Positions 5,954-31,058 of a stretch of DNA of 33,802 bases are shown here, in pieces. Positions within the stretch are counted from its first letter, which is position 1. Each line of letters begins with the position of its first letter. Position numbers and translations under genes: made by a program. This DNA is from SAR202 cluster bacterium (GTDB taxonomy: Bacteria > Chloroflexota > Dehalococcoidia > Lucifugimonadales > VGZY01): NCBI GenBank assembly GCA_016872355.1, contig VGZY01000001.1, positions 1 through 33,802 on the forward strand. The letters are read 5' to 3'. The notes under the pieces are model-generated. The model was not told where the DNA came from, made no database searches, and was given only the letters and a program-made list of their open reading frames with translations.

Positions 5954-5980
5954 ACAGATGCAATCGCAAAAGGCAGATAC

Positions 5981-6298: not shown

Positions 6299-6361
6299 GA
6301 CGCGACGAAGCTGCTGCTGGAGGGCAGCACGGGACTTGAGCCGGTCGTCGCGGCCTTCGAC

Positions 6362-6787
6362 GTGGAGCGCCCGAAGGACGGTGTCGTGTTCGACGAGAAC
6401 GGCTTCCGCGTCACCGCGCACCACAACATGCACGTCGGCGCGCCGAAGCCAGGACAGCCATGGGAGTCGTTCTCCTACCGCTTCGAGGCGGACGGCCACG
6501 CAGTGGTATACTCGGGCGACGTGGCGCACCCGGAGGATGTGGACCCGCTGGTGGCGCAGGGCTGCGACCTGCTTCTAATGGAGACCGGCCACCACACCGT
6601 AGAGGCCGTGGGGCAGTACGCGGCGCGCGTGCTACCAAAGGGAGCGCGGCTCGGCTACCTGCACCACGGTCGCGCCGTAATGGCCGACCGCGCGGGCGAG
6701 CTACGGAAGGCAAAGGCGATCATGGGCGAGCGCGCCTTCTTCACAGAAGAGGGCATGGTGATGGAGATTGGGACTGGATCAGTGTAG
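6362..6787 (+). CDS. Metallo-beta-lactamase-fold hydrolase, C-terminal piece
   Basis: Continuation of the gene at 5981 after the TAA; homologous sequence is open from 6299, and the first likely internal start is GTG 6362. It contains VTAHHNMHVGAPKPGQP, VYSGDVAHPED, METGHHTVEAV and YLHHGRAVM, which provide the remaining metal-binding His/Asp residues. It would be translated only by re-initiation or read-through. The stop codon lies inside the left arm of an inverted repeat (6784-6863). Confidence 0.65.
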   Translation: MERPKDGVVFDENGFRVTAHHNMHVGAPKPGQPWESFSYRFEADGHAVVYSGDVAHPEDVDPLVAQGCDLLLMETGHHTVEAVGQYAARVLPKGARLGYLHHGRAVMADRAGELRKAKAIMGERAFFTEEGMVMEIGTGSV

Positions 6788-6863
6788 TCGCGCGATTTAT
6801 CGCGCCCGGATTGTTCGCCAGCCAGCCAGTAGAAAACGCATGCGCGATGAATCGCGCGACTAC
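6784..6863. repeat. 80-bp inverted-repeat element (MITE- or hairpin-like)
   Basis: Arms 6784-6805 and 6842-6863 are reverse complements over 22 nt with one mismatch (core GTCGCGCGATT), separated by 36 nt. It begins inside the stop codon of the upstream gene. No transposase is nearby. It could be a non-autonomous element, a REP-like palindrome or a long terminator-type hairpin; no T-run follows. Confidence 0.75.
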
Positions 6864-6886
6864 AAATACGTTCGGAGTACAAGACT

Positions 6887-8044: not shown

Positions 8045-8121
8045 CCGCGTTTGCAGGACCAACGGCGTTTCAAATACCATTTAGCCTGTCGTCTAACGTC
8101 AACTGGAAGGCATAGCAACAT

Positions 8122-8913
8122 ATGAAGGTCAAGCTACTCGACTACGAGCGGTCGTTTATTGTCTTTGAAAGCCACTTTGTGAAATTCCCGCCCAAGACGG
8201 TGTCGGACCTGAGGCAGCAGGCGCACAACCGGGCGCGCATCAAGATCGACAGCCTGTGCCGTATTACGGACGCGAAGGGCGTTACCCGCGAGTACTACCT
8301 GGGAGAGTCGTGCAAGACCGAGCGCGTGGGCGTCGGGAAGGACGTTGGGCTATTCACGCAGCCGAACGCGGACTTCCGGCCCGTGATGTCCACGGAAGAT
8401 TCGATCTTCATCAAGAGCTGGGACAAGAACGACAAGGGCGTCATGCTGCAGCCTCCGTCCCTTGGGCCGCAGACGGAGCGGCAGTCGGTCATCACGAAGG
8501 ACGCGTTCTGGAAGTACTGCTTCGTCATCAAGCACCGCGAGGCCGATCTGCTGGAGGATGCTCCGGCGATCATCAAGGCGTCCGACGACGGCCGCCCCGT
8601 CTTCGCCCGCACCGAGTTCGAGAAGGACGGCTACAAGATATTGCTGGAGTACCCCGTCAAGACGTTGAACGTGAGCGAGGAGCACACGGCATTCCAGACA
8701 GACACGGGCCCCGTCCTGTTCCCGGACTTCAGCAAGCCGGTAACGAGGACCGCGCAGGGCTTCTACCTGGCGTTCATCGCGTACAACAAGTCCGATTGGG
8801 CGGAGTTCATTGTCAACCGGCCCACGCCCATCGCGCCCGGCGTATCGGTCAACCACTATTCCGAGAACGCCTGGATAGACAAGTGCAAGAACACCCTGTA
8901 CGCGATAGACTGA
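8122..8913 (+). CDS. Conserved-looking hypothetical protein
   Basis: 263 residues, ATG start with GGAAGG 11 nt upstream. I do not recognise a family. It is soluble, rich in charged and aromatic residues, and lacks a signal peptide or membrane segment. It begins MKVKLLDYERSFIVFESHFV and contains a GxVTREYYLGESCKTERVGV-like segment suggesting beta structure. Codon use matches the neighbours, and the long open frame in GC-rich DNA supports a real gene. It lies 77 nt after the TIM-barrel gene and 16 nt before the next gene, so the three may be an operon acting on one substrate. Confidence 0.7.
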   Translation: MKVKLLDYERSFIVFESHFVKFPPKTVSDLRQQAHNRARIKIDSLCRITDAKGVTREYYLGESCKTERVGVGKDVGLFTQPNADFRPVMSTEDSIFIKSWDKNDKGVMLQPPSLGPQTERQSVITKDAFWKYCFVIKHREADLLEDAPAIIKASDDGRPVFARTEFEKDGYKILLEYPVKTLNVSEEHTAFQTDTGPVLFPDFSKPVTRTAQGFYLAFIAYNKSDWAEFIVNRPTPIAPGVSVNHYSENAWIDKCKNTLYAID

Positions 8914-8929
8914 CGGAGCGTGCTCGCAC

Positions 8930-9295
8930 TTGCCTGAGCTGATCTACCTCGAAATAGAGCAGAACCCCAACTGCGACTACATGCCGATGCAGGTTTACGA
9001 CCCCCACCTGGAGGCCGTGCCGGTGCGGCGCGTTCGCATCGAGGACCCCGGCCACCCGTTCGGGGTGTACGAGGTGACGGGCTGGAGCTCCGAGCGCGGC
9101 GGCACGCCCTGCCCCGCCATGTACGCGCCGATCATGGACTCCGGCGCGGCGGAGGCGCACCTGGTCTACGGCGGCGACTGGGGCGTGCGCCTCCGTCCTG
9201 AAGGCAGCAACGAACCGTGGGACGTATCGAGCCCACGGCAATGGGGCGAGCCGTACGTGATACGGCTCAACAAGGCGGATATTCTGCCTACTTGA
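8930..9295 (+). CDS. Small hypothetical protein
   Basis: 121 residues from TTG 8930 (GGAG at 8915-8918, 11 nt upstream); ATG 8981 is a possible later start. The sequence has no domain I recognise. It is a compact soluble protein with several short beta-prone segments (YLEIEQNPN, PVRRVRIED, AHLVYGGDWGVRLR). It is 16 nt behind the previous gene, as in an operon. Its last 8 nt overlap the end of the minus-strand gene at 9288. Confidence 0.6.
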   Translation: MPELIYLEIEQNPNCDYMPMQVYDPHLEAVPVRRVRIEDPGHPFGVYEVTGWSSERGGTPCPAMYAPIMDSGAAEAHLVYGGDWGVRLRPEGSNEPWDVSSPRQWGEPYVIRLNKADILPT

Positions 9296-9548
9296 ACGCG
9301 ACCACGGGCGTGATCTGCTTCACCTCAGCCTTTGCCACCTTGATCCCCATGGCGCCGTGGGAATCGATCACAGCCTGAGCGTTAGGGGCGTCCGTAAGGC
9401 ACCAGCCCTCACCTTCGCCCATCAGCACGTTGATGGGCTTGACGCCGAACTGGTCCTTCTTGCCGGCCTGCAGGTTAGATTTGATCTGCCCTGCCAACTC
9501 GGCGGGCATCTGCGCGCGCATCTGGTGGTGGTCCATAAAGTTGGGCAT
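9288..9548 (-). CDS. DUF4242-like small protein (ferredoxin-like fold)
   Basis: 86 residues with AAGGAGA just upstream of ATG on the minus strand. It begins MPNFMDHHQMRAQMP and has GWCLTDAPNAQAVIDSH followed by a GIKVAKAEVKQITPV strand. This matches the pattern of the DUF4242/SCO4226-type small proteins (about 80-90 residues, Cys-Leu-x-x-Ala-Pro in the middle, His-rich ends; one member binds nickel). His residues at both ends of the fold could bind a metal. Family placement is by pattern and is moderately sure. It overlaps the convergent plus-strand gene by 8 nt and may share an untranslated 3' region with it. Confidence 0.75.
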   Translation of the reverse strand: MPNFMDHHQMRAQMPAELAGQIKSNLQAGKKDQFGVKPINVLMGEGEGWCLTDAPNAQAVIDSHGAMGIKVAKAEVKQITPVVAFK

Positions 9549-9643
9549 AGACGCGTCTCCTTGAGCGAATTACTCACGGGACCGGGGACGGTTTCCCGCC
9601 GCTCCGGGGCCAGTGGCTGCTGAGGAAAAGTGGGGCCTTACGT

Positions 9644-10099
9644 CTACATCGGCCTGCTCACCCACGGGTCGGGGCCGGGTCCGTTGCCTTCCAATGCCGC
9701 CTTCAGGCGGCCTGTGTAGTGCACCCAGCCCTGGAGGTGGCGATCGGCGGCGGCGGCTGGCAGGCCGGTGTGGCGCAGGCGCAAGATCGTCCCGCCGCAG
9801 TCCGGCGTCAGCGTGACCTCCACCGTGCTCGAGCCCGGAGGGATCGGGCTCCCTTCGTCCTCCCACCCCCATGTGAACACGATCTTCGTGAAAGGCGTGA
9901 CCTCAACGTACTCACCGCGGACGATATCGCGTCCCGTGACGTTCACCCTGTAGGCGCCGCCGGGGCGAGGGTCCATCGTCGCCTCGGTCCCCTTCCATCG
10001 CATCAACTTCACGGGGTCCGTGAAGAACGGGAAGATGGTCTCCGGCCGCGCGTCGATTCTCACGACCTGCTCAACGACGTTACTCGCCTGTCTTTGCAC
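9644..10099 (-). CDS. SRPBCC (AHSA1/START-like) domain protein
   Basis: 151 residues from GTG 10099. It has the typical order of the Aha1-C/AHSA1 branch: VVEQVVRIDARPETIFPFFT, then LMRWKGTEATMDPRPGGAYR, IVRGEYVEVTPFTKIVFTWG, a VEVTLTPDCGGTILRLRHTG strand and a GWVHYTGRL helix. These helix-grip proteins bind hydrophobic ligands, and many are encoded directly behind an ArsR-family regulator, as here. The start lies inside the end of the upstream arsR-type gene (20-nt overlap), so translation is coupled. The ligand is unknown. Confidence 0.88.
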   Translation of the reverse strand: MQRQASNVVEQVVRIDARPETIFPFFTDPVKLMRWKGTEATMDPRPGGAYRVNVTGRDIVRGEYVEVTPFTKIVFTWGWEDEGSPIPPGSSTVEVTLTPDCGGTILRLRHTGLPAAAADRHLQGWVHYTGRLKAALEGNGPGPDPWVSRPM

Positions 10100-11700: not shown

Positions 11701-12885
11701 ATGGCTATGAGGCGCAATCTCAGGATAGCGCTGGCCGGGCTTCTCGCCGGGCTCATTTGCCTTGCCCTCCTCTCCCGGCCCTCACCTGCCCGCGCCGCCG
11801 AAGAGACCGTGCATGTCACCCTGATTACCGGCGAAGCGGTGACGGTTACCGTCCGGACGGACGGTACGAAGGTGTACAGCAGACCGTCTCGGTCGATGCC
11901 GAGCCAACCCTCCTCCGGCGTCGCATCCAATTCGATCGGCGGCGGCCATTCCGCAGAGATCGACGGTCTCTTCTTCGATATCGACTACCTCATCGACAAC
12001 GGTTACCACAAGCTGAGCTATCTCCCGGTTGTGCTTACCGCACCCGACCGGCAATCGCTGCCGGCGCTGGCTGCGCTGGCTGCGGCCACAGGTGGCCGCG
12101 TGACGTATGTGTCGCGCCTCATTCCCGCCGTCGCCGTAGAGCTTCCGCTGGCAGGCGTCGCCCAGTCTGCAGGCGCGATCGCAGCCACGCCGGCCGCGAG
12201 CGGTCTCTGGCTGGACGCCACCGCGCGCGCCGACCTCTCCGTGTCCGTGCCGCACATCGGCGCGAACCTGGTTTGGGCGAACGGGTACCGGGGAGAAGGC
12301 ACAATCATCGCCGTTCTGGACACGGGCATTAACTCCGCGCACGACTTCCTTGACGACCTTGACGACAACCCTGCGACGACCGACCCCAAGGTGCTGGAGT
12401 CCCTGGACTTCACGGACACGACCCCCGACGACATACAGGGGCACGGCACGCACGTGGCGTCTACCGCTGCAGGCACCGGCGCGGGCACAGGTAAGACGGG
12501 AGTCGCCCCGCAGGCGTATTTGTGGAGTATCAAGGTCCTCGGGGGCTCCAGCGGTGTCGGTCTGACTTCGTGGATACTGGCGGGGCTGGACTATGCGGCT
12601 CTGGGGCCGGACATGGAAGCTAACACGGGCGACGAGGCGGACGTGATCAACATGAGCCTCGGCAATCCCGTCAACACGGACGGCCGCGACCCGCTGGCCG
12701 CGGCCGTGGACGCGGCGGTAGCGGCGGGGCGTGTTGTCGTGGTCTCCGCCGGCAACCGGGGGCCGAACGCCTCCACGCTCGGCACGCCCGGCGTGGCGTG
12801 GGACGCGATCACCGTCGGCGCGAAGTCTCTGATAGATACAAAGCGTCCTTCTCCAGCCGGGGGCCGACGGCGGACCTGCGGCTGA
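11701..12885 (+). CDS. Secreted subtilisin-like protease 1, N-terminal piece (frameshifted)
   Basis: ATG 11701 is the first start; ATG 11707 is better spaced from GGGGG (11695-11699). A signal peptide (IALAGLLAGLICLALL, cut near ARA-AEE) is followed by a ~170-residue propeptide-like region. The S8 domain has catalytic Asp207 in IIAVLDTGIN and His248 in GHGTHVAST, plus the substrate-binding SLGNP and VVSAGN segments. The frame fails within 12821-12830, right after AITVGA. The next frame supplies VSDRYKASFSSRGPTADLRL and the catalytic Ser. A one-base deletion explains it. The last ~20 residues of this piece are out of frame. It is the first of three adjacent secreted S8 proteins. Confidence 0.85.
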   Translation: MAMRRNLRIALAGLLAGLICLALLSRPSPARAAEETVHVTLITGEAVTVTVRTDGTKVYSRPSRSMPSQPSSGVASNSIGGGHSAEIDGLFFDIDYLIDNGYHKLSYLPVVLTAPDRQSLPALAALAAATGGRVTYVSRLIPAVAVELPLAGVAQSAGAIAATPAASGLWLDATARADLSVSVPHIGANLVWANGYRGEGTIIAVLDTGINSAHDFLDDLDDNPATTDPKVLESLDFTDTTPDDIQGHGTHVASTAAGTGAGTGKTGVAPQAYLWSIKVLGGSSGVGLTSWILAGLDYAALGPDMEANTGDEADVINMSLGNPVNTDGRDPLAAAVDAAVAAGRVVVVSAGNRGPNASTLGTPGVAWDAITVGAKSLIDTKRPSPAGGRRRTCG

Positions 12886-14339
12886 AGCCGGACGTGACGG
12901 CGCCGGGGACGACGATACACGCTGCCGCGCACGACAGCGCGAGCGGGACCGCCGTTATGTCCGGCACCTCCATGGCCGCGCCACACGTGGCGGGGCTGGC
13001 GGCGCTCCTGCGGCAGAAGTACCCGGACCGGTCGCCGGAATTTGTGAAAGCGGCGATCATGAACAACGCCCTCCCGCTGATTAACCTTGCCCTGACCGAC
13101 CAGGGGGCGGGCCGGATAAGGGCCGTGAATTCGATGAACGCGAAGGTGGTGGCGACCGAACCGAGCGTCAGCTTCGGGCGGGTGGCCGCGGGGTCGGACC
13201 CATCGCGGACGATAACGCTGTCATGCACGTGCGAAGAATCCATTTCGGTTAACCTTGCGACGGCCACCACACGCAACGGCTCGTCCGTTACAGGCCCCGC
13301 CGCGCCGGCATCGGTGACCATACCGGCGGGAGGGAATGCGACGTTCCAGCTATCACTCGACACGGGGCCGGACGATGCGGAAGGGACGTACGAGGGCCGC
13401 ATCACGGCCACCTTCACGGGCGGCACCATAACGGTCCCGTACATGTACAGGCTATTCAAGGCGCCGGAGATCTCAATCGAGGGCGCGCCGATTGAGCGCA
13501 GCATTATTCATGTGGGATGGTCCTACGACACTGTTGAGGTAGCCAACAACGGCAGCGGAGACCTGAAGTACCGGCTCGAAGGGCGCGCGGAGGGTTGGCG
13601 GCAGGGAGGGCTCAAGGTCCTGGCAAACGACCCCGCAGGCGACTACACCGGCGCGCCGGTGGATATCCTGCGCGTGGACGGCATTGCGGCAGACGGGTAC
13701 CTGACCATGCGACTGACGTTTGCGACCTCTACGCCTGTGCAAGAAATAGCGGCGGCAATGTACCTGGATATTGACCAGGACTTCCGGACCGGAACACCAA
13801 AGGGAGACATCGGCTGGGAGTATCTCCTCTATTTCGACGGGGCGGCAGAGGAGTCTGTGTTCTACGACCAGACGATGGAGGGGTTAGTCATACCGCTCAT
13901 TCTCGAGGGCAACACGGCCATAGCCGACTGGGAGTTGGAGTACATCGGCAACGACGACGGCGCGATGCACTTCATCGTCGAAGCCGGCCCCGCCGGGACA
14001 ACGACTGTCCTGGACACAGCGCCGGATACCCTCTTCGGCGTGCTGGACGCCGGCCCCGGAATCGCGCCCTGGATGTGCTTCCACCCGTCGTCCGGAACGC
14101 TTGGGCCGGGCGAGTCGCAGACCGTTAACGTGTTCACTCGCTGCAATACGAAGGTCGCCACGACCACCCACGAGGCGCTTATCACGGACATCAGCAATGA
14201 CCACGAGGCCGGAACACAGTCCCTGCCGTTCACTCTCATCGTCACTCAGGCCCCAAGTGTTCCGTCCGCCTCAGCGTGGGCGCTGGCAATTATTACTGCA
14301 TCGCTGGCAGCGGCGGTCTACGTGAAGCGACGCCGCTAA
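12798..14339 (+). CDS. Subtilisin-like protease 1, C-terminal piece with sorting-like tail
   Basis: Homologous sequence begins near 12825 (codons from GTG 12798 to there are out of frame). SFSSRGPTADLRLKPDVTAPG precedes the catalytic Ser codon at 12969-12971 in SGTSMAAPHVAGLAAL. After the S8 domain come a beta-rich Fn3-like region (about 13150-13470) and a second beta domain with VDGIAADGYLTMRLTFAT and YLDIDQDFRTGTPKGDIGW, the latter Ca-loop-like. The C-terminus reads VPSASAWALAII, then a membrane segment and KRRR, like IPTL/PEP-CTERM-type tails. Without the N-terminal half (Asp, His, signal peptide) it cannot be an exported active protease. Confidence 0.85.
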   Translation: MGRDHRRREVSDRYKASFSSRGPTADLRLKPDVTAPGTTIHAAAHDSASGTAVMSGTSMAAPHVAGLAALLRQKYPDRSPEFVKAAIMNNALPLINLALTDQGAGRIRAVNSMNAKVVATEPSVSFGRVAAGSDPSRTITLSCTCEESISVNLATATTRNGSSVTGPAAPASVTIPAGGNATFQLSLDTGPDDAEGTYEGRITATFTGGTITVPYMYRLFKAPEISIEGAPIERSIIHVGWSYDTVEVANNGSGDLKYRLEGRAEGWRQGGLKVLANDPAGDYTGAPVDILRVDGIAADGYLTMRLTFATSTPVQEIAAAMYLDIDQDFRTGTPKGDIGWEYLLYFDGAAEESVFYDQTMEGLVIPLILEGNTAIADWELEYIGNDDGAMHFIVEAGPAGTTTVLDTAPDTLFGVLDAGPGIAPWMCFHPSSGTLGPGESQTVNVFTRCNTKVATTTHEALITDISNDHEAGTQSLPFTLIVTQAPSVPSASAWALAIITASLAAAVYVKRRR

Positions 14340-14501
14340 GGTACCGCTACACTGGTCCGATTCGTTACACTAACGGACTAGTCTTCTCTTCAAGCGCGGG
14401 CTGCCCTTCCGCCGCATCGTAAAGGCGTTGATTAAGGTCACTTGCGCCGCTATATTACGCCGCACAACGCACAGTCTTCGCCCTTCAGGAAATACCGCAA
14501 A

Positions 14502-16496
14502 ATGCGATTCGCTCCTCTCGCGGCCCTTGCCGTGGTAGCCGTGACTCTCCTCGCCGTCGTGACTGGGCAGACGGCATTCGCCGACGTGCCTGCGCCGCTC
14601 AACGAGGCCGGATCGCCCTCCGAAGCGCAGTCGCGGGCGAAGATCGCCCACGAGCTTTCGTACTTCCTGGAAGATACCGGCCCCTTGCGTGTCAGCCGGG
14701 CCGTCGTCGGCGCGTCCTCGACAGAGCTTCGCCCCCAGGCGGCGGCGCTGGTGCGGGACGGCGTCGTTGATATGGACGCAGCGAACAGGGTCCAGCTGGT
14801 GGTGCGGGCGGGCTGCGAGACGGAAACCACCATCGCCGCGATTGAAGCTCTGGGCGGAAAAATTGAGCGCATAGACCGAAGCGATAAATCTATTCAGACT
14901 AGTGTTGACCCCGCCATAATACCTTCAATAGCCACCCTGGATGCGGTGACGTCGATCGAAACCCCGGTTTACGGACATGTGAATGCCGGGTCGAAGACGA
15001 CGCAGGGCGACGCCCTGCTCAACCTGGACGACATGCGCGCCGCGCTTGGGGTGAACGGGACGGGCGTGACGGTGGGCGTCATATCCGACGGCATCAACGG
15101 GCTACAGAGCTCGATACTGCTCGGGGACCTGCCGGCCACGCAGGAGATACGGAACGCCCAGGGGAGGGTGGCGACGACGACGGGCGGCGTGATAGGGCGG
15201 TCGTTCCGTTCCGACCGGAACCTGGAGGGGGGCCTCGGTGGCGCGACGACCGGCGCTGAAGGGACGGCGATGCTGGAGATCATCCACGACATCGCTCCAG
15301 GGGCGCAGCTCATGTTCGCCAACTTCCAGACGGCGAGCGAGTTTAACGCGGCGGTCGACTGGCTGGCGGCGAACGCGGACGTGGTGGTGGACGACATCAG
15401 CTTCTTCGGCATTGCGTACGACCAGTCGAGCCACGTTTCGGTGAACACCGCAACGGAGCTGAACAGGCCGGGAAACAGGGTGAGGGCGTACTTCACATCG
15501 GCAGGCAACTACGCGCAGCGGCACTGGGAGGGGATGTTCGAATCGGGCGGGACGTGCCACACGGACGCGTTCACAACGTGCCAGCAATTTACGCCGAGCG
15601 CGGACACAACTGACTTCCAGGGCCTTGGCGGGCAGCCGTTCAACAGGATCAGGATACTCAGGAACCAGTCCGCAACTATCTATCTGTCGTGGTCTGAGAC
15701 GTATGGGGCCGCAACCAGCAACTACAATCTCTACCTGGTCGATGAAACGACCCTCTCCGTGGTGGCCTCCAGCCAGGCGGACAACATCGGCGGCAACCCC
15801 ACGGAGCAGATCAGCTTTGTGAACTTGAGCGGCTCGGACCGCTGGTACCGGATTCGGATCACCAATACCGACTCCTATCCCGCACGAAACATGGATCTGT
15901 TCGTCCTTGGAGGCGTTCAGCAAGCGGACGGCAACAGGCTGAACTTCAATACCAGGAAAGGAAGTGTTCCCGCGCAAAGCGATGCTGGTGGAGGGGTGAT
16001 TTCGGTGGGCGCGATCAACTCTTCCGACATTGGGACAGACACTATTGCCCCGTACAGTAGCTGGGGCCCTGCGAACAACGGCGCGCAGAAGCCGGATGCA
16101 ACGGCAATAGACTGCGTGCAGGTCACTGGCTCCGGCGGCTTCGGCAGCAACTTCTGCGGCACATCGGCGGCCGCGCCGCACGGGGCGGCAATGGCGGCGC
16201 TGGTCCTGCAGAAGCGGCCGGACCTGATGGCCGGGGGGCAGGGCGAGGACCCGGCGGCGGAGCGGGCGGCGCTCCGTGCGGTCATCGTGGGGTCGGCAGT
16301 AGACCTCGGCGAGCCCGGCACAGACTACGTCTTCGGAGCAGGCAGGATCGACGGCCTGGCGGCGGGGAGCGCGGCGACGAGCGCAGAGCCGCCCGTGGTG
16401 CCCTCGGCCTCCGCCTGGGGGCTTGCGATAGCCGCCGCGGCACTCGCGACGCTAGCTGCAGTCCGCACCCGCCGGCCGGGGTCGAAATCCCTGTAG
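14502..16496 (+). CDS. Secreted subtilisin-like protein 2 (catalytic His replaced)
   Basis: 664 residues. ATG 14502 was chosen over the upstream TTG 14442 because AGGA (14487-14490) precedes it and the signal peptide follows at once (LAALAVVAVTLLAVVTGQTAFA). The S8 fold is clear: Asp196 in VGVISDGING, the oxyanion region TSAGN, and Ser555 in CGTSAAAPHGAAMAALVLQ. Where HGTxVA is expected one finds GAEGTAMLEIIHDIAPGAQL, with Glu253 in place of the catalytic His. A subgroup of S8-like proteins shares this EGTAMLE form, so it may be a divergent protease or a binding protein. The C-terminus is VPSASAWGLAIAAAALATLA then Arg-rich, the same signal as protease 1. This is the only one of the three with an intact frame. 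Confidence 0.88.
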   Translation: MRFAPLAALAVVAVTLLAVVTGQTAFADVPAPLNEAGSPSEAQSRAKIAHELSYFLEDTGPLRVSRAVVGASSTELRPQAAALVRDGVVDMDAANRVQLVVRAGCETETTIAAIEALGGKIERIDRSDKSIQTSVDPAIIPSIATLDAVTSIETPVYGHVNAGSKTTQGDALLNLDDMRAALGVNGTGVTVGVISDGINGLQSSILLGDLPATQEIRNAQGRVATTTGGVIGRSFRSDRNLEGGLGGATTGAEGTAMLEIIHDIAPGAQLMFANFQTASEFNAAVDWLAANADVVVDDISFFGIAYDQSSHVSVNTATELNRPGNRVRAYFTSAGNYAQRHWEGMFESGGTCHTDAFTTCQQFTPSADTTDFQGLGGQPFNRIRILRNQSATIYLSWSETYGAATSNYNLYLVDETTLSVVASSQADNIGGNPTEQISFVNLSGSDRWYRIRITNTDSYPARNMDLFVLGGVQQADGNRLNFNTRKGSVPAQSDAGGGVISVGAINSSDIGTDTIAPYSSWGPANNGAQKPDATAIDCVQVTGSGGFGSNFCGTSAAAPHGAAMAALVLQKRPDLMAGGQGEDPAAERAALRAVIVGSAVDLGEPGTDYVFGAGRIDGLAAGSAATSAEPPVVPSASAWGLAIAAAALATLAAVRTRRPGSKSL

Positions 16497-16532
16497 TCCC
16501 TCTCCATCGCTTGCGCTGGCTCCAGGAGCGCA

Positions 16533-17624
16533 ATGAAGAGATTAACAGCTCGAAAGACCCGCCTTCTTACGCCCCTGGCCGTGGCACTCACGGCGCTGGC
16601 GGTGCTCACCGCGGCGTCGTCTGCCTCGGCGCAGTCGGCAGACGACGCTCTGAAGCTCGACTCGAGCCTCTTCCCGCTCGCCCCCCAGCTCCTGCCGGAC
16701 GGATACCCCAACGGCGCCGGCGATAGCCCCCTCACCCTCGACCCGTGGATTCGGACGCGCGACAACCAGGTGCTCATCGAGATTTACGCCCAGCCCGGAC
16801 GGCTGCAAGAGGCAATCGCCGCCACGACGCGGTGGGGCTCCGAGGTGACGGACGCGCATGCGCCTGCAGACCTGTTCGCGGCCTGGGTCCCCGTCCCCAT
16901 CCTGCTCATCCTGAACGACGAGCCGTCTATCAAGGCCATCGCCGCCACGCCGATCATCTACCCTGAGGTCATAGGCGAGGGTTACAATCAGATTAACGCG
17001 CCCGCATGGGCCGCGGCCGGGTACAACGGCGCGGGTGTGAAGGTGGCGGTTGTCGACTCGGGGTTCCAGGGCTATCAGAACCTGCTTGGCTCGGAGCTGC
17101 CCCAGAGCGTCACGATCAACGGCACCTTCTTCGGTGACGCATCCCGTGGCATTAACGGCAACACCGACCATGGCGTCTACGTGGCCCAGTCAATGTACGA
17201 TATCGCTCCGGGCGCGCAGTATTATTTCGTGAATCCCGGAACGGTAACGGGGTTCCTGAACGCTGTGGACTACCTGATCTCCCAGAACGTAAGAGTGGCG
17301 AACATGTCGCTCGTCTGGTTCGGCCACTACGGCGACGGTAGCGACGTCATCAGCCAGAAGGTGCAGCAGGCGCGGGACGCAGGCATTACATGGGTAAACT
17401 CCGCCGGCAACCACGCGATGCTCCACTGGCGAGGCACGTGGCGAGACGCCGACAACGACGGCATTATGGAGTTCAGCGGGTCGGACGAGACGAACAACTT
17501 CAATATGGCGTCCGGGGGCGTGACGCTGATGCTCCGGTGGAACGACGCCCACACCGCCCCCGGGAACGACTTCCAGGTCTGCCTGAGCCAGAGTACCGGG
17601 CAGCTCGATTGCTCCGTGGACTAG
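16533..17624 (+). CDS. Secreted subtilisin-like protease 3, N-terminal piece (stopped by TAG)
   Basis: ATG 16533 with AGGAG (16524-16528) 4 nt upstream. The signal peptide is VALTALAVLTAASSASAQ. The S8 domain shows Asp175 in VKVAVVDSGFQG, His213 in TDHGVYVAQSMYDIAPGAQ and the WVNSAGNH region. TAG at 17622-17624 follows LDCSVD. The same frame stays open and homologous from 17625 (QSGQWWHGPGDFLTVPV) into the next piece, so this is a nonsense interruption and not a natural end. TAG could come from CAG or TGG by one transition. Confidence 0.85.
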   Translation: MKRLTARKTRLLTPLAVALTALAVLTAASSASAQSADDALKLDSSLFPLAPQLLPDGYPNGAGDSPLTLDPWIRTRDNQVLIEIYAQPGRLQEAIAATTRWGSEVTDAHAPADLFAAWVPVPILLILNDEPSIKAIAATPIIYPEVIGEGYNQINAPAWAAAGYNGAGVKVAVVDSGFQGYQNLLGSELPQSVTINGTFFGDASRGINGNTDHGVYVAQSMYDIAPGAQYYFVNPGTVTGFLNAVDYLISQNVRVANMSLVWFGHYGDGSDVISQKVQQARDAGITWVNSAGNHAMLHWRGTWRDADNDGIMEFSGSDETNNFNMASGGVTLMLRWNDAHTAPGNDFQVCLSQSTGQLDCSVD

Positions 17625-17666
17625 CAGAGCGGCCAGTGGTGGCACGGCCCGGGCGACTTCCTGACC

Positions 17667-20603
17667 GTGCCTGTGGCGGTGCCGTCCACACCGGGAGCTT
17701 TCATCCGCCGCGTCAACGCATCGCGCACGGACTTCACTTTCGACCTGTGGCTGCTCGGGCCGACGGGGGCGTTCGAGTACCCCAACCCTGCGGGAAGCAT
17801 AGTCACGCCCGCGGACTCGTCCGCTGCCATCACCGTCGGGGCCTACACCTGGTCGAACACCAGCGCCGTCGCATCGTATAGCAGCCAGGAGCCGACGGTG
17901 GACGGCCGCGTCAAGCCGGATATCACCGGGCCTTCCGGATTCACCGCCAGGGCGAGTAGCGGCACAGGCAATGTGTCCATCAGCGGCACGTCGTTCTCTT
18001 CGCCCGTGGTCGCCGGGGCGGCGGCGGTGGCCCTGCAAGCGAACCCAACATTTACGCCCGCCCAGGTACAGGCATGGCTGGAAGCCCGCGCCACGGACAA
18101 AGGGGCCGTGGGCAAAGACAGCGTCTTCGGCGCCGGGCTGCTGAATCTCGGCTCCCCAGCAAGGGTCGCAGTCTCCGGCACAACGGTGTCCGAGTCTGCA
18201 GGAAACGCCGCGGTAACCATCTCTTTGCTGGACCAGCCCTCAGGGTCACCGGTGACGGTCAGCTACGCCACTTCGAACGGGATGGCCCAGGCGGGTAGCG
18301 ACTACGGCAGCACGTCCGGCACGGCGACCATAACGGCGGGCGCGATGTCCACGGTCGTCCATGTGCCCATCATCAATGACGCGGTAGACGAGCTGGACGA
18401 GACGTTCACGGTCACCATTTCGAACGCATCCGGCGCCTCAATCCAGACTGGCACGGCATCAGTGACGATCACCGACGACGACCCCACGCCATCTCTGGCC
18501 GTCGCCAACCTGTCCGTCGCCGAGAGTGCGGGCGCTGCGGCGGTGACAATCACGCTCAGCGGCGCTTCCGACCGCGAGGTGCGCGTGGGCTACTCCACGT
18601 CGATCGGCACGGCGACGGCGGGGCAGGACTTTGCGGCCACATCCGGCACGGCGGTGTTCGCCCCGGGCACGCTTTCGAAGGCGATAAGCGTGCCGATCAC
18701 GAACGACGCCCTCTATGAGACGAACGAGACGTTCAGCTTTGCGATCTCCCAGCCGGTGAACGCAGTCATCGGCGGTAGCGCTACCGCCACCGTCACGATC
18801 ACGAACGACGATCCGGCGCCGTCACTCTCGGTTGCCCCGGTGACGGTTGAGGAGAGGGCTGGAAGCGCCTCGGTGAGGATCGCCCAGAGCGCAGTTTCGG
18901 GCCGCGCGACATCGCTCCAGTTCGCCACAGCGAATGGCGCTGCGCTCGCGGGGCAGGACTACACGGCGTCCAGCGGAACGGCGACCATACCGGCGGGGGC
19001 AACGTCCACGGCGATCACGCTCCAGGTCATCGACGATGAGATCGATGAGCCGGATGAGTCGTTCACCGTAGCATTCTCGAACGTGCAGAACGCCACTCTT
19101 GGCGTGCAGAGCGTGACCGTGACTATCAAGAACGACGACGCCCTGCCCGTTATCACTGCGCCGGCAATTGTCGTCAGCGAGGACGCCGGCACGGCGGTAC
19201 TGCGCCTGGTCCAGAGCTTCGCCGCAAGGTGGGATGTCACGGTGGGGTTCGCAACCTCGGGCGAGACCGCCCAACATCTCACTGACTACCTCGCCCGGAA
19301 CGGGACGGCGACAATCCCTGCGGGCGCGACCTCCACTACGGTCGTCATCCAGCTTGTCAACGAAACGCTCAGCGAGGCGCCGGAGTATTTCACCGTCAGC
19401 TTTTACAATCCATCGCGCGCCACGCTCGCTCCCACGGCAATCTCGGTCCGGGTGGACATCGTCGATGACGATGGTGAACCGGCGATATCCGTCTCCGGCG
19501 GAACATACAGCAAGTCCGTCGGGGCGGCGATCGCGGTAATAAGCCTCAGCAGGGCGGCAGGGCGCGACGTTGCCGTGCAGTATCGCACGATCAATGGCAC
19601 AGCGGTGGCGGGCCGGGACCACACTGCCGTGAGCGGCACGATTACGGTCCGCGCGGGAGAGACGTCGGCGGTTGTGACCATCCCGATCACGGATGACGCA
19701 GTTTACGAGTTCGATGAAGTGTTTGTTGTCGAACTACTCTCCCCCGTCGGCGCAACCCTGGCCCCGAGCGGCGCACAGGCGGAAATCGTCATTGCCGACA
19801 ACGACAGCGTCCCTGGCTATTCAGTTACCGGGGAGACCATAATCGAATCGGACGGTGAGGCAGTGGTCCGCATCGTCATGCAAGAGCCATCTGAGCAGCC
19901 GATCACGTTCAACTATGCAACGCTGAACAACGGCGCGGTGGCCCCCGGCGACTACGACGGCGGCGCCGGGAGCGTCACCTTACCCGCGGGCGAAACTTCG
20001 GCGAGGATCGTTGTGCCGATTGTGGATGACTCCCTCCACGAAACAGACGAGGACATCGACGTTGCAGTGACGCCGACTGGCGCGGACACCGCCACGCAAT
20101 CGGCCGCGGCCGCGTCGACCGGGACAGCAAGGATTGTGATCCACGACGACGACCCCCAGCCGGCGATATCCGTTCTCAACCTGGCGGTTATGGAATCCGT
20201 CGGGAACGCCCTGGTGACGGTCGCGCTGGACGCCCCCTCTGGGTTGGACGTGACATTCAATTATGAAACGGTGGATGGCACGGCCGTTGCGCCGCTGGAC
20301 TACAAGGCAACCGCCGGGTCTGGCACGATACCTGCAGGGGCTACCTCTACAACGGTGGCCATCCTGGTCCGGGACGATTCGCGCTACGAGAAAGAGCCGG
20401 AGAACTTCAGCGTGCGCCTGACATCGGTCGCGGGGGCGTCGGTCGCCCCGAACGCCGCCGGGGCGGTGACCATCCAAGAAAACGACCCGCCGCCGCCGCC
20501 GGTCCCGCTCGCCTCGCCGTTTGGGCTCATCGTGCTCCTGTTCGGAGTCGCCCTCCTGGCAGGGGTGCGCATGCGCTTCCACGCCGCGGGTCCACTGGTG
20601 TGA
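17667..20603 (+). CDS. Subtilisin-like protease 3, C-terminal piece with seven Calx-beta repeats
   Basis: Same frame as the piece at 16533; homologous sequence starts at 17625 and the first internal start is GTG 17667. Catalytic Ser (17991-17993) is in ISGTSFSSPVVAGAAAVAL. Then come seven Calx-beta domains of about 110 residues, each closing with a DDDP/NDDP-type Ca-binding turn: about 18163-18486, 18487-18816, 18817-19143, 19144-19474, 19475-19809, 19810-20157 and 20158-20490. A proline run (PPPPVPLASPFG), one membrane segment (LIVLLFGVALLAG) and a basic tail end the protein. The Calx-beta array would bind Ca2+ and act as a rigid stalk. The whole gene would give ~1356 residues, a surface-anchored protease. 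Without its N-terminal piece it is not exported. Confidence 0.88.
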   Translation: MPVAVPSTPGAFIRRVNASRTDFTFDLWLLGPTGAFEYPNPAGSIVTPADSSAAITVGAYTWSNTSAVASYSSQEPTVDGRVKPDITGPSGFTARASSGTGNVSISGTSFSSPVVAGAAAVALQANPTFTPAQVQAWLEARATDKGAVGKDSVFGAGLLNLGSPARVAVSGTTVSESAGNAAVTISLLDQPSGSPVTVSYATSNGMAQAGSDYGSTSGTATITAGAMSTVVHVPIINDAVDELDETFTVTISNASGASIQTGTASVTITDDDPTPSLAVANLSVAESAGAAAVTITLSGASDREVRVGYSTSIGTATAGQDFAATSGTAVFAPGTLSKAISVPITNDALYETNETFSFAISQPVNAVIGGSATATVTITNDDPAPSLSVAPVTVEERAGSASVRIAQSAVSGRATSLQFATANGAALAGQDYTASSGTATIPAGATSTAITLQVIDDEIDEPDESFTVAFSNVQNATLGVQSVTVTIKNDDALPVITAPAIVVSEDAGTAVLRLVQSFAARWDVTVGFATSGETAQHLTDYLARNGTATIPAGATSTTVVIQLVNETLSEAPEYFTVSFYNPSRATLAPTAISVRVDIVDDDGEPAISVSGGTYSKSVGAAIAVISLSRAAGRDVAVQYRTINGTAVAGRDHTAVSGTITVRAGETSAVVTIPITDDAVYEFDEVFVVELLSPVGATLAPSGAQAEIVIADNDSVPGYSVTGETIIESDGEAVVRIVMQEPSEQPITFNYATLNNGAVAPGDYDGGAGSVTLPAGETSARIVVPIVDDSLHETDEDIDVAVTPTGADTATQSAAAASTGTARIVIHDDDPQPAISVLNLAVMESVGNALVTVALDAPSGLDVTFNYETVDGTAVAPLDYKATAGSGTIPAGATSTTVAILVRDDSRYEKEPENFSVRLTSVAGASVAPNAAGAVTIQENDPPPPPVPLASPFGLIVLLFGVALLAGVRMRFHAAGPLV
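18163..20490 (+). repeat. Array of seven Calx-beta coding repeats
   Basis: Seven divergent repeats of about 320-350 nt lie inside the protease 3 gene. Each encodes an opening V-x-E-S-x-G strand, a middle ATxxGTAxAGxDY segment with GTATIPAGxTS, and a closing D-D-x-x-x-E-xx-E-x-F turn followed by DDDP. Divergence at DNA level argues against recent expansion. Confidence 0.85.
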
Positions 20604-25809: not shown

Positions 25810-26017
25810 CCACCATGCTTACCCATGAACTTGAACCGCTCGAATAGTTAGTCTTTCCACGTGTTAACACTATAGTGGATACGATGTGTAAAGTACTATG
25901 TTCATGTGTTACAGGCCCCCACCCCAACCTCATAGAAATATCAATGCCCTAATTGCGAAGCAATCGAAGCGCTAAAACTTAAGAGCAGTACAAGCAGTCC
26001 CAGATATGGGAGGCACT
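25810..26017. other. AT-richer intergenic region with nested palindromes
   Basis: No gene seen. Three perfect palindromes overlap: CACGTG (25858-25863), GTGTTAACAC (25861-25870) and CACTATAGTG (25868-25877). TATAGT at 25871-25876 may be a -10 box, though no good -35 is present. GGGAGG (26008-26013) is the ribosome-binding site for the next gene. Confidence 0.5.
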
Positions 26018-26989
26018 ATGCTGAAGCTCAAGGGTAGAGATACATGGCATGTTCCTGGTGCCGGTATTTTGGTGATGAGCGTACTGCTTGTATCCTTGGC
26101 AATCGCAACCAGGGTTGGAGACGCACAAGCGTTCCCCGGTGAAACCGCAACTACCCTGTCAGAATACTACTTGGCGTGTGGTAAACCGTTGCCGAGCCTT
26201 GCTAATCGGGGCCAGATATTCCAGACGCTGGGCCTCGGAGCAGCTTCCTCCTACACTGGTAGCATAGGGCAGAATACGGTCCTGCTCAACGCTCTGAAAG
26301 CGCGACAGATTTGCCCTGCAACTGCCTCAGAGATTCCATTGACGGATTCCACCGTTCCAACAGTTAACTCCTTCTCCGTCACTCCCGGTTCGGTAACATT
26401 GGGAGGGTCTTTCCACATCGCTTACAGCGTCTCGGACTCGGGGGGCTCGAATCTGAACCGTGTAGAGCTCTGGCGGGCGGGCGATAGTGCTGGTAGCCCA
26501 ACAGGCTGGGTGGAGGTCAAGAGGGTATCCATCTCTGGAACCAGCAGCTCCAGCTCGTTCACTGACACGCCTTCGTTGTCAGGCTCCTACTGGTACGGAG
26601 TGCACGCAGTGGACAACGCCGGCAGCTGGGCTCCCGAAGCCTCCCCCGTCAAGGTGACGGTTACGCCCCTCACCGCACCATCAGCTCCGCTGAACCTTCA
26701 GGCAACTGCGGAGGATGGGTCGGTCAACCTCTCCTGGAACGCTCCCTCCAACAACGGCGGTTCGGCGGTCACCGGATACAGACTCTACAGGGGCACTTCC
26801 TCAGACGGTGCATCATTCTATTCAAACGTGGATGGTACCACCTACCAGGACATCGCCAATGTCACCAACGGCACTACCTACTACTACAAGGTAACTGCCG
26901 TCAACAGCGCAGGAGAAAGCGCGTTCTCCAACGAGGCAATCGCTACCCCCCCAGGCGGCGGCAGTGACACTGACGCTGTACGTGCGTGA
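26018..26989 (+). CDS. Secreted mosaic protein, N-terminal piece (signal peptide and FN3)
   Basis: ATG 26018 was chosen (GGGAGG 4 nt upstream); ATG 26006 overlaps that site. The signal anchor or peptide is VPGAGILVMSVLLVSLAIA. A short Cys-containing region (YYLACGKPLPSLANRG ... RQICPAT) follows, then an Ig-like region and a fibronectin type III domain (SAPLNLQATAEDGSVNLSWN to GTTYYYKVTAVNSAGES, about 26680-26930). The frame is lost at the 7-C tract 26946-26952. Removing one C leads straight into the frame of the next piece. Codon use is less GC-biased than in the rest of the window. Confidence 0.75.
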   Translation: MLKLKGRDTWHVPGAGILVMSVLLVSLAIATRVGDAQAFPGETATTLSEYYLACGKPLPSLANRGQIFQTLGLGAASSYTGSIGQNTVLLNALKARQICPATASEIPLTDSTVPTVNSFSVTPGSVTLGGSFHIAYSVSDSGGSNLNRVELWRAGDSAGSPTGWVEVKRVSISGTSSSSSFTDTPSLSGSYWYGVHAVDNAGSWAPEASPVKVTVTPLTAPSAPLNLQATAEDGSVNLSWNAPSNNGGSAVTGYRLYRGTSSDGASFYSNVDGTTYQDIANVTNGTTYYYKVTAVNSAGESAFSNEAIATPPGGGSDTDAVRA

Positions 26990-28499
26990 GTTGAGCATCG
27001 CTGATCCGGTTGTGCCCGGGGCGCAGGTCACCGGCACTACCGGCAATGGCGCGCCGTTCAACCAGTCCGCAAACAGCAGCGGTTACGTGACCCTGACAGG
27101 CGCTCCGGGGACCTGGCAGTTTGCGATCTCCGCCGTTGGCTTCACATCACGAACCTGGAACGACACCATCACTACGAGCCAGACCAGGACCGCCTTCTTC
27201 TCATCGAAGGTCACTGCCACTCCCGTCATTGCTGCCCAGGTCGTTAGCTACGCACCAGCTAACCTCGCCACCAAGCCGATCGGAACAAGCGTATCTTTAT
27301 CAGTGACGATTCGGAACACCGGAAACACCCCGTGGAATTTCACCGGCGGGCTGACTATCTTCGACGACGCAGGCGTGGAAGTCGCCTCATATTCTGCTCA
27401 GACAGGCTCCATGGCGCCTATCGAAGAAAGAACTCTCATATGGGATCACGTGCCTGAGGCAGCTGGAGATTACTGGGTCCAGTTTGGCGCATGGAAGCAG
27501 CAATCTTTCATTGCCGACAATCTCTTGCATCGGTACCCTAGCCCGTCGCGGAACCTAATAAGGGCGACGGCCAGCGAATCGTGCGTACCTCTTTCATCGC
27601 AACAGGTGCCGTCACTCGAACGGCCTGCGATCGCAACGCTCGTCGGTTTTAAGAAGGCCCAGAATGTGACAGTGGCTTCAAGAAGCAATTCGCTACAAGT
27701 TTGTAGTGCTCCGATTGTAAGCCGTGTATCTCCACCCTCCGACACCATTTCTTTGAATGTCGGCGAAAGCATAACGTTCATCGCGCAAGTCACCGCGCAT
27801 GACGGGAACCTGAGTGGAGTGGCATGGCGAATCAACGGTGAGCTGGTATCCGCCTTCAGGTTCGAAGCGATTGGCTCTCGGCAGGATAGCCTGCCCCGCA
27901 CCTTTACTGATGTGGGCACCCTCACGGTTACGGTTACGTACTTAGATACCTCTGGAATTGACGGTGACATAGCGTGGACAGTAACGGTCGAAGAAACTCC
28001 CTCAGTCTGTGGAGAAGCACTTGGTTTTCAGATGCCTATTGCCAATAATTTAAAGGACCCTACACAAGCATTCGCATTGTTTCTCCCAGATTACAACGGC
28101 AAAGTATATCAAGGGTTCCACGGGGGAGAAGACTGGTCAGCGGACCCGGGACAATCAGTCTACCCGATTGCCAAAGGTAGAATCGCAAAGATCTCTCCAC
28201 TAGGGGCCCTCGGACACCTCATCGCTATCGAACATACCGGATCTTTCTTGTTCCCTGACTATGCCACGACCACTCACGGCCAGTCCGTTCATTATTCTCA
28301 AGAGAACGTGAATACGTTTTACTCTGTTTACATACACGTAACGCCAGGAACCGGGCTAATAGAAGGTCAGTGCGTCAATCAAGGCGATGCGTTTGCCTCC
28401 ATTGCGACTTTGCTTGGGTCCCACCTTCATTTGGAGATTCGCCATCCAGACCAAATTCACTCAAGAAACTGGAGTCTGGTAGGAGATCCCGAAAACTAG
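26964..28499 (+). CDS. Mosaic protein, second piece (CARDB-like, Ig-like, M23 peptidase)
   Basis: In the frame reached by skipping one C at 26946-26952. The order is: a carboxypeptidase-regulatory-like beta domain (VPGAQVTGTTGNGAPFN); a CARDB-like domain (VSLSVTIRNTGNTPWNFTGG, WVQFGAWKQ); an Ig-like/PKD-like domain (ISLNVGESITFIAQVTAHDG); and an M23 peptidase domain. The latter has FHGGEDWSADPG, with His (28119-28121) and Asp (28131-28133), and HLHLEIRH, with His at 28422 and 28428, so all LytM-type zinc ligands are present. M23 enzymes cut peptidoglycan cross-bridges or other glycine-rich peptides. TAG at 28497 stops the frame after GDPEN, but homologous sequence continues in the same frame. 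Confidence 0.75.
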   Translation: MTLTLYVRELSIADPVVPGAQVTGTTGNGAPFNQSANSSGYVTLTGAPGTWQFAISAVGFTSRTWNDTITTSQTRTAFFSSKVTATPVIAAQVVSYAPANLATKPIGTSVSLSVTIRNTGNTPWNFTGGLTIFDDAGVEVASYSAQTGSMAPIEERTLIWDHVPEAAGDYWVQFGAWKQQSFIADNLLHRYPSPSRNLIRATASESCVPLSSQQVPSLERPAIATLVGFKKAQNVTVASRSNSLQVCSAPIVSRVSPPSDTISLNVGESITFIAQVTAHDGNLSGVAWRINGELVSAFRFEAIGSRQDSLPRTFTDVGTLTVTVTYLDTSGIDGDIAWTVTVEETPSVCGEALGFQMPIANNLKDPTQAFALFLPDYNGKVYQGFHGGEDWSADPGQSVYPIAKGRIAKISPLGALGHLIAIEHTGSFLFPDYATTTHGQSVHYSQENVNTFYSVYIHVTPGTGLIEGQCVNQGDAFASIATLLGSHLHLEIRHPDQIHSRNWSLVGDPEN

Positions 28500-28538
28500 G
28501 CCAAATTCCCCCATGATGGCAACTACAACGGATATTAC

Positions 28539-30641
28539 TTGAATGCTCAAACCATGGTTTACGACGGCCTTAGAGATCCAAGGCAGGTCATCAATGCCAA
28601 TCCGGTCGACACTCAGAACACACTGACGTTGATGCCAGAGCCGCCAGACTCTGGAGGTTTTAGCCTCGATCAACCGTCCATGAGTACACTGGGCGGAACC
28701 TTTCCATTCAGTGAAGTTCTCCTTGTGACAATTTCCGGCTTACCTGCTTCGGGATGGTACTTCGTCGGCTGGAGTGGTGATTGCGATGGCGGCGGTCCAT
28801 GCCAAGTCACCATGGATCGAAACCGGTCAGTTATAGCACATTTTTCTCAAGAAATACCGTATGTAAAAACGTTCGTCAAGCCAGTAAAATCCACGTCTTC
28901 AACCGAAGCACCTTTTGTAAAGGCGACTGTGAAGTATCGCAAGCTAGGTATTGATTCATTCTTGGTGCATGAGGTACGGCTCGATGGTGAAGGTATAGCG
29001 GGAGGTGCCACCGAGTTCGGAATTTACGACCGAAGCGATTATCAGCCACCAATTCCCCCGGCACCGTGGACAGCAAAATGGCTGAAGCTGGACTTTTCAC
29101 AAGATGCGAGCGAAGTCAGGACGTTCTCGCCTAACATCATCGTCCACGCTGACGATGTAATGACATTAAGCTTCGGCGGTTTTGCAAAGGGCAGAGTTTA
29201 TTTTGGCGTTGGCTGGCTTGACCCGGTGGACGAACTGCTTGCAGATTTGCTCGCCAACACCTGGCCGGCAATTGCTGCATTTGAGTCCGATAGCCCCACA
29301 GTCTTCGAAGTTACTCCCAGACTGCCTGACTTGGAAATCGTTCGCACCGCAAGTCCGGGTGAGCTGCGGCTGGTAGACAGCTTAAACCGGACCACGGGTA
29401 CCAACGCCGGCCAGACAACGATGGAAATCCCTAATTCTATGTTGATTGACGGGGCCGTCTTAGTACTCGGGCCTCAAAATCCCCATAGCATGATCGTGCG
29501 CGGCGCGGCTGTTGGGACTTATGGCCTAGAAGTGGCGTCCGTGAAGGATGGAGAGTTGCGCCGAACCTCGAAAACCGATGTTCCTATTGTTTCGGGTGAA
29601 ATCCACCAAATACAAATTAGCCTTGGACAGTCCATCGCCATCCACGAGATAGATGCTGACGGAGACGGGGGTTTTGAGTCCACCGCGGAGTTAGCCGTTC
29701 CTCAAGAGCCACAGAATCTGTGGCCCGTGAGTGAGTCTAAGGCTATCGGCCTGAATCCACTGCTTTCATGGCAGGCAGGCTCCGCAGACCACGGCAACCT
29801 GCTGTCTTACGATGTCTATCTTGGTGAAGACCCTTCTTCAATGTCCATGGATACGGTTGGCCCACGTATCGCCCAAGGTGCGGGTGAGACATTCCAAGTA
29901 TCAAGCCTAAAACCCGGAACAGATTACTATTCGAGAGTCCGGGTCGCCGGGGAAGGCGGTATCGAAACCGGCCCGCTCTGGTCCTTCACCACCGTCCCCT
30001 GTGGAGACATTAACGGCGACGGAAGCCTGAACGCTATTGACGCGATCTCACTCTTGCAAATAGCTGTAGGTCGAATTGAGGCCACCGAAGACAAGTTGGT
30101 CCTCGGTGACACAAACAGTGACGGCAAAATTAACGTTTTGGACGCTATCGTACTCTTAAAGGTGATAACCGGAGTTCCGATCGACTTTTGCTCATCGGAC
30201 GAGCAGAGTCCTGTCCCGCCTCCGCCTTGCACAGTCGGCCACATCGCGTTTCACCGCGCCAATGAAATCTATATCATGTGCGCCGATGGGACTGGGGAGA
30301 AGAGGCTCACCGGTAACCTGAATTCGGAACGGGACTCACACAGAGACACCCGCCCAGCGCTTTCGCCCGATGGTACTAAGATCGTCTTCGAATCCGATAG
30401 GCACAGCACATGCCCGCAGGAGGCGTGCCTTGAGATATACACGATGAACGCAGATGGGTCTAATCCCGTTCGGCTGACCTGCAATTCAGCTCCTGACTGG
30501 AACCCTGCATGGTCTCCGAACGGCTCAATGATCGTATTTGACTCTACTCGCGACGGGACTAAGGATATTTACAGGATTTCCTCGACCGTCCCTTGTTCTA
30601 GTGAGGACAAACTTTCAGCTAACGGTCTTCACAAGGAGTGA
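28539..30641 (+). CDS. Mosaic protein, third piece (InlB-like, FN3, dockerin, propeller start)
   Basis: Same frame as the previous piece; open from 28500. The start at 28539 is only the first internal initiator. The order is: an InlB-type repeat (GWYFVGWSGDCDGGGPCQVT, about 28740-28850); a long beta-rich region; an FN3-like domain (NPLLSWQAGSADHGNLLSYD to DYYSRVRVAGEGG, about 29700-29995); and a type I dockerin with two calcium loops (DINGDGSLNAIDAISLLQ and DTNSDGKINVLDAIVLLK, about 30000-30177). Last come TolB-type blades (IYIMCADGTGEKRL, ALSPDGTKIVFESDR, AWSPNGSMIVFDSTRDG). TGA at 30639 stops it inside the propeller. Confidence 0.75.
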   Translation: MNAQTMVYDGLRDPRQVINANPVDTQNTLTLMPEPPDSGGFSLDQPSMSTLGGTFPFSEVLLVTISGLPASGWYFVGWSGDCDGGGPCQVTMDRNRSVIAHFSQEIPYVKTFVKPVKSTSSTEAPFVKATVKYRKLGIDSFLVHEVRLDGEGIAGGATEFGIYDRSDYQPPIPPAPWTAKWLKLDFSQDASEVRTFSPNIIVHADDVMTLSFGGFAKGRVYFGVGWLDPVDELLADLLANTWPAIAAFESDSPTVFEVTPRLPDLEIVRTASPGELRLVDSLNRTTGTNAGQTTMEIPNSMLIDGAVLVLGPQNPHSMIVRGAAVGTYGLEVASVKDGELRRTSKTDVPIVSGEIHQIQISLGQSIAIHEIDADGDGGFESTAELAVPQEPQNLWPVSESKAIGLNPLLSWQAGSADHGNLLSYDVYLGEDPSSMSMDTVGPRIAQGAGETFQVSSLKPGTDYYSRVRVAGEGGIETGPLWSFTTVPCGDINGDGSLNAIDAISLLQIAVGRIEATEDKLVLGDTNSDGKINVLDAIVLLKVITGVPIDFCSSDEQSPVPPPPCTVGHIAFHRANEIYIMCADGTGEKRLTGNLNSERDSHRDTRPALSPDGTKIVFESDRHSTCPQEACLEIYTMNADGSNPVRLTCNSAPDWNPAWSPNGSMIVFDSTRDGTKDIYRISSTVPCSSEDKLSANGLHKE

Positions 30642-30713
30642 GCGGCGTGGTCTCCAGACGGCGCAAGTATCGCTTACACGGGCAAAAATAGTGAGGGTGC
30701 TCTACGGATCTTT

Positions 30714-31058
30714 GTGATCAATGCCGACGGAACAAATCCATTCCCCGTGGCGACCACTACCTCCTCCGAAGGAGGGCCAACTTGGTCGCCAGACGGGCTC
30801 AAGATCGCCTTCCGTTCCACTGAGGGTGGCATTCCTCAGATTTGGATAGTCACCACCGATGGAACTGGTGCAGCCGCCGTTACTATCCCAAATACAGTGG
30901 GCGGTGAAGCGCCCGCATGGTCAATGCAAGGGGCCAGACTCGCTTTCACAAGCAAGGTCGGCGACGAGTCGCATATATTCACAATCAATGTGAACGGCAC
31001 TGACAGGGTTCCTGTCACGGTCGTGGGCGGTACCTTTGAGCCCTCCTGGTCAAACTAA
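30714..31058 (+). CDS. Mosaic protein, C-terminal piece (TolB-type propeller blades)
   Basis: Continues the third piece in the same frame from 30642 (AAWSPDGASIAYTGKNSEGA), interrupted only by TGA 30639-30641. It contains further PD40/TolB blades: FVINADGTNPFPVATT, TWSPDGLKIAFRSTEGG, WIVTTDGTGAAAV, AWSMQGARLAFTSK and FTINVNGTDRVPV, then FEPSWSN and a natural TAA. The propeller probably binds a protein or glycan partner. Translation of this piece alone is doubtful. Confidence 0.65.
   Translation: MINADGTNPFPVATTTSSEGGPTWSPDGLKIAFRSTEGGIPQIWIVTTDGTGAAAVTIPNTVGGEAPAWSMQGARLAFTSKVGDESHIFTINVNGTDRVPVTVVGGTFEPSWSN

Follow-up and report, generated by a model that had tools for sequence, protein, structure and literature searches.

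An interrupted mosaic gene combining M23 peptidase, dockerin and TolB-like propeller domains in a SAR202 bacterium predicted to lack peptidoglycan

In a 33,802-nucleotide stretch of DNA from a SAR202 cluster bacterium (the window, by which we mean the whole stretch analysed), four open stretches on the + strand (26018-31058) read together as one mosaic gene, interrupted three times. From its N-terminus, the encoded protein would consist of a signal peptide, a first set of adhesive beta modules, a zinc endopeptidase of the M23 family, further beta modules, a type I dockerin and a six-bladed propeller. It would be exported and, through its dockerin, bind the only cohesin protein that the genome encodes, itself probably bound to the cell surface. 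The M23 domain would cut peptidoglycan belonging to other bacteria, either to antagonise them or to feed on wall debris, while attachment to the target or to a surface nearby would fall to the propeller and the Ig, FN3 and InlB-like modules. We give slightly less than an even chance to this proposal of an exported, cohesin-docked M23 endopeptidase acting on the peptidoglycan of other bacteria. A full-length product of the interrupted gene is putative; the domains, their ligands, the cohesin, the absence of transpeptidase and MurG and the intact M23 mosaics of relatives are observations.

The open reading frames lie where the earlier note had placed them, and its account of the interruptions proved accurate: a frame change separates piece 1 from pieces 2–4, which share one frame and are divided by two in-frame stops, making three interruptions over 5 kb (Table 1). 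The periodicity of GC by codon position runs unbroken across both stops (28497, 30639). In Candidatus Lucifugimonas marina (G085, CP046147.1), Ig, FN3-like and 'TLTLYV' modules occupy a single open frame, and hence the first junction is natively fused in this relative. At the other end of the gene, six propeller blade motifs are found only when both sides of the TGA at 30639 are combined. Both results uphold the earlier reading of the four frames as one protein. The start codon, ATG at 26018, is backed by GGAGG at 26009-26013 with suitable spacing; piece 1 has this ribosome site and a plausible signal peptide, and pieces 2–4 have neither signal peptides nor evident ribosome sites. GC3 is 0.58 in the mosaic gene compared to 0.81 in nine neighbours, an offset that suggests foreign origin or relaxed constraint.

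Table 1. Features of the mosaic gene, with positions in the window.
Feature	Position	Strand	Evidence
Likely signal peptide, 38 residues, Sec type	26018-26131	+	Sequence reading
Ig-like module	26336-26680	+	50-55% identity to three repeats of G170 M23 protein (L142)
Fibronectin type III domain	26681-26938	+	Pfam fn3, E 6e-11
C7 tract, frame change	26946-26952	+	Sequence; L026/L154 keep the same junction in one frame
'TLTLYV' beta module, carboxypeptidase-regulatory-like	26964-27218	+	41% identity to L026/L154 module after Ig/FN3-like region
CARDB-like module	27219-27578	+	28-42% identity to modules in G172, G065 and G109 proteins
Peptidase M23 (LytM) domain	28005-28496	+	Pfam PF01551, E 6e-9
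In-frame TAG	28497-28499	+	Sequence reading
Divergent InlB B-repeat (Flg_new_2)	28725-28850	+	Pfam, E 6.5e-6
Second fibronectin type III domain	29763-29960	+	Pfam fn3, E 3e-4, 21.3 bits, below cut-off 25
Type I dockerin, two complete calcium loops	30003-30158	+	Pfam PF00404 Dockerin_1, E 1.8e-6
Six-bladed TolB-like beta propeller, stop-interrupted	30228-31055	+	PD40 in both halves
In-frame TGA, inside propeller	30639-30641	+	Sequence reading

The main rival, a serious possibility though one we judge less than probable, is pseudogene decay: a mosaic gene gained by horizontal transfer would have suffered a frame change and two nonsense mutations and would now be functionless, yielding at most a secreted Ig-FN3 fragment of ~320 residues. 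Three interruptions within 5 kb, the foreign-like GC3, the lack of a conserved orthologue and the confinement of signal peptide and evident ribosome site to piece 1 are what decay would predict. However, codon-position periodicity and all M23 and dockerin ligands remain. Interruptions also affect other genes of this assembly, which makes an error of assembly or consensus another possible cause. On contig C1, a gamma-glutamyltranspeptidase gene is interrupted by TAG (L093 13157-14827) and an FAA hydrolase gene by a frame change (L093 5259-6169); on contig C30, an HtrA-like gene is interrupted by TAA (L092, around 17882). Within the window, a tandem array of three genes for secreted subtilases (S8) spans 11701-20603, and Calx-beta repeats are present in the last. 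A frame change splits the first of the three (11701-12885/12798-14339), and a TAG in frame at 17622 splits the third (16533-17624/17667-20603). Interruptions are thus found on more than one contig and comprise all three stop codons as well as frame changes, while the RNase II-like, aldehyde dehydrogenase, GcvT-like, rpoB and rpoC genes of the assembly are open. Assembly or consensus error and gene decay both fit these data. We rejected recoding of TAG or TGA as an explanation, as both are ordinary stops of neighbouring intact genes and the interruptions involve all three stops and frame changes.

To define the domain content, each piece (26006-26986, 26964-28496, 28500-30638 and 30642-31055) was searched separately with Pfam profiles against curated cut-offs. 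The M23 and dockerin segments match their profiles as anticipated, with scores of 36.4 bits for Peptidase_M23 in piece 2 (cut-off 28.7) and 28.5 bits for Dockerin_1 (cut-off 22.9). The M23 domain is divergent, its Pfam match falling in two stretches; no PDB sequence matched it, and an AlphaFold model of the domain alone, at a pLDDT of 33.6, is too poor to be informative. It keeps HGGED and HLHLE, and the zinc ligands HxxxD and HxH align with the M23 domains of relatives, confirming that the full set is present. Pfam and NCBIfam searches found no known wall-binding domain beside it, which, like its divergence and the lack of a PDB match, tells against the proposed wall-cutting role. Both calcium loops of the dockerin, DINGDGSLNAID and DTNSDGKINVLD, are kept as read from the sequence, and PDB dockerins match it (best E 7.7e-5). 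For the propeller, PD40 matches have E values of 2e-15 (28500-30638) and 2e-16 (30642-31055) and reach 113 bits when the stop is read through. A read-through model has low confidence (pLDDT 52), with TolB structures as its top Foldseek matches, which are consistent with the sequence evidence but contribute little beyond it. Scores against the TolB equivalog TIGR02800 are 71 and 80 bits, far under the cut-off of 343.

The domain order put forward in the earlier note was recovered in part. Pfam places the first fn3, M23, InlB-like, dockerin and propeller domains, but the second fn3 falls below its cut-off and the CARDB-like and Ig-like segments have no Pfam match reaching cut-off. Identity to modules of relatives does back these last two segments as modules. 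Relatives of the Ig-like module range from 35 to 67% identity, with 36% to Ca. Lucifugimonas marina, and the InlB-like segment reaches as much as 60% identity with the repeats of an M23-amidase protein (L143). Matches to the Ig-like module at 35-67% identity (L160-L173) occur in records labelled Acidobacteria, archaea, Bacteroidales and Gallionellaceae, which suggests that this module has been widely transferred.

No whole-chain orthologue was found in 197 genomes of the order, 393 genomes of the class or GTDB contigs, the genomes searched all lying outside the host's own family. Searches of GTDB contigs with piece 2, viral contigs with piece 3 and plasmids with the M23 domain yielded no relative, and we found no description of SAR202 or Dehalococcoidia dockerins in the open-access papers searched; by title and abstract, the papers returned concern Planctomycetes and Anaerolineae instead. 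The suggestion that the architecture is undescribed therefore holds for the whole domain order, seen in no searched genome, but not for the pairing of M23 with dockerin: genome G007 encodes CarboxypepD_reg, dockerin and M23 in one intact frame of 484 residues (L141), its dockerin scoring 22.0 bits in a whole-protein scan, just below the cut-off of 22.9, and 26.0 in another search. No intact single-frame orthologue of the whole chain was found in the genomes searched; the Ca. Lucifugimonas marina frame spans the first junction. Two further intact relatives share parts of the protein. In G170 (L142; L161, JAQBXL010000176), three of the mosaic gene's Ig modules precede M23 and a C-terminal hydrophobic tail; in G249 (L143), M23, Amidase_3, eight InlB repeats and a propeller-like end form a chain of 1653 residues. 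The latter (4848-9809) resembles a lipoprotein and joins M23 to muramoyl-alanine amidase; it comes from a genome of an order that largely lacks peptidoglycan. G007 also encodes subtilase, cohesin and dockerin within one 1116-residue frame (L156 7033-10383).

A dockerin implies a cohesin partner elsewhere, as the earlier note pointed out, and a search of the host genome found one (C30:13356-13694, 45.3 bits). The open frame around it is 279 residues long and includes a likely signal peptide as well as a Thr/Pro tail. Its homologues in two relatives, G035 and G217, consist of a signal peptide, a cohesin and a Pro/Thr linker, with a hydrophobic stretch and basic residues at the end, suggesting that they are membrane-anchored. 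Given the cohesin in the genome and the hydrophobic tails of its relatives, surface docking of the mosaic protein is plausible. The Thr/Pro repeat of the host cohesin ends within the antisense end of an ABC substrate-binding protein gene (L001 2005-2172, C30), and the assembly join at this repeat may be chimeric.

Across the 250 genomes of the order, 31 have both dockerin and cohesin, 26 dockerin only, 9 cohesin only and 184 neither. Cohesin is thus present in 31 of 57 genomes with dockerin compared to 9 of 193 without, an odds ratio of 24 that is inflated by shared ancestry, which the co-occurrence test ignores. The idea that the mosaic dockerin is the only one in the host genome was weakened by a second, weak match (E 0.02, below cut-off) in an SdrD_B protein near the cohesin gene. 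This SdrD_B-repeat protein (L159 2365-8577, – strand, C30) has 2070 residues and a CHRD domain, and its gene is ~5 kb away from the sole cohesin gene. A cellulosome-like complex would call for a scaffoldin bearing several cohesins and for multiple dockerin enzymes; with a single cohesin, one dockerin above cut-off and one weak, the genome falls short of this. In many genomes of family f41, there is a two-gene locus in which a ~960-residue protein ending in cohesin and dockerin adjoins a ~220-residue cohesin protein (e.g. L104 8686-12233); this locus recurs in genus g81 and its neighbours.

The substrate of the M23 domain has to be considered in light of the host's own envelope. Published work describes SAR202 bacteria as having no peptidoglycan synthesis (PMC10444878, PMC11994032). 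The host genome (3.07 Mb, 97.6% complete) belongs to the same order as Ca. Lucifugimonas marina, a member of the SAR202 clade. It contains no penicillin-binding transpeptidase (PF00905) and no MurG, and PF00905 is present in just 4 of 250 genomes of the order. From gene content, then, the host lineage is predicted to be without a peptidoglycan wall. M23 domains above cut-off are rare in the order (15/250 genomes), and the host's sole one is that of the mosaic gene; a second match in the host genome was RpoC, a false match. Since the host lacks transpeptidase and MurG, the M23 domain would not remodel its own wall, and if it cuts peptidoglycan, that substrate would be foreign because the host has no wall synthesis. 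Hence, of the earlier suggestion that a peptidoglycan-active enzyme is docked on a surface complex, the docking is plausible, given the cohesin and its putatively anchored homologues; the lack of peptidoglycan in the host lineage was not foreseen there, and the enzyme would not act on a wall of the host's own.

Alternatively, the M23 fold could cut other extracellular proteins, as in the LasA-type elastases, which use this fold on such substrates, or could be a non-catalytic binding module of an adhesin. We regard this as unlikely. It would suit a host without a wall, an M23 domain with no wall-binding domain, and a protein-digesting secretome of the kind that the three subtilases of the window and the subtilase-cohesin-dockerin protein of G007 would form. 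Yet the catalytic ligands are kept, and the G249 protein, whose single chain unites M23 with a muramoyl-alanine amidase, points to a peptidoglycan substrate in the order. Least probable by far is that four separate genes lie in a row by chance: the stops do divide the frames, but the second splits one propeller, the first junction is fused in Ca. Lucifugimonas marina, and pieces 2–4 have no signal peptides or evident ribosome sites of their own.

Returning to the proposed cohesin-docked wall peptidase, a broader and rather doubtful extension is that peptidoglycan-less bacteria of the SAR202 clade display secreted lytic peptidases (M23, subtilases) on their surface via cohesin-dockerin pairs, and that such display is a small cellulosome-like system aimed at the walls and proteins of other cells and not at plant fibre. 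SAR202 bacteria abound in the ocean and are difficult to culture. If wall-less cells do carry a surface-docked wall peptidase, some SAR202 bacteria would attack or digest other bacteria, and cohesin-dockerin docking would extend beyond polysaccharide-degrading systems. The intact relatives in G007, G170 and G249 make this reading testable despite the interrupted copy.

Among known systems, the M23 (LytM/lysostaphin) endopeptidases, including the weaponised zoocin A and archaeal Woldo, resemble the mosaic protein in PF01551 fold, zinc ligands and predicted export. The Woldo M23 hydrolases are used by cells without peptidoglycan to kill bacteria (PMC12352652), and the host genome likewise encodes a hydrolase for a substrate it does not make. 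Unlike zoocin A and Woldo, the mosaic M23 has no known wall-binding domain, which would be expected beside the catalytic domain of a weaponised hydrolase of this type, and is coupled to a dockerin and a propeller in a peptidoglycan-less bacterium. The hosts of ruminococcal cellulosomes are Firmicutes that have a wall and scaffoldins bearing several cohesins. PMC6403190 cites a lysozyme activity for the cellulosome of R. champanellensis, as well as ruminococcal wall hydrolases with dockerins, and these enzymes, like the mosaic protein, carry a dockerin for cohesin docking; the mosaic's host, in contrast, has one cohesin in its genome and no wall. Closer to home, the G007 protein, exported and encoded in one frame, shares the CarboxypepD_reg-like, dockerin and M23 domains but has its dockerin before M23 and no Ig, FN3, InlB or propeller. 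The G170 protein has a hydrophobic tail in place of dockerin and propeller, and the G249 protein, which shares M23, InlB repeats and a propeller-like end, adds Amidase_3 and is without dockerin. TolB of the Tol-Pal system has a similar six-bladed PD40 propeller, which here is a module within a mosaic. The domain combination is real and unusual, a variation on known kinds.
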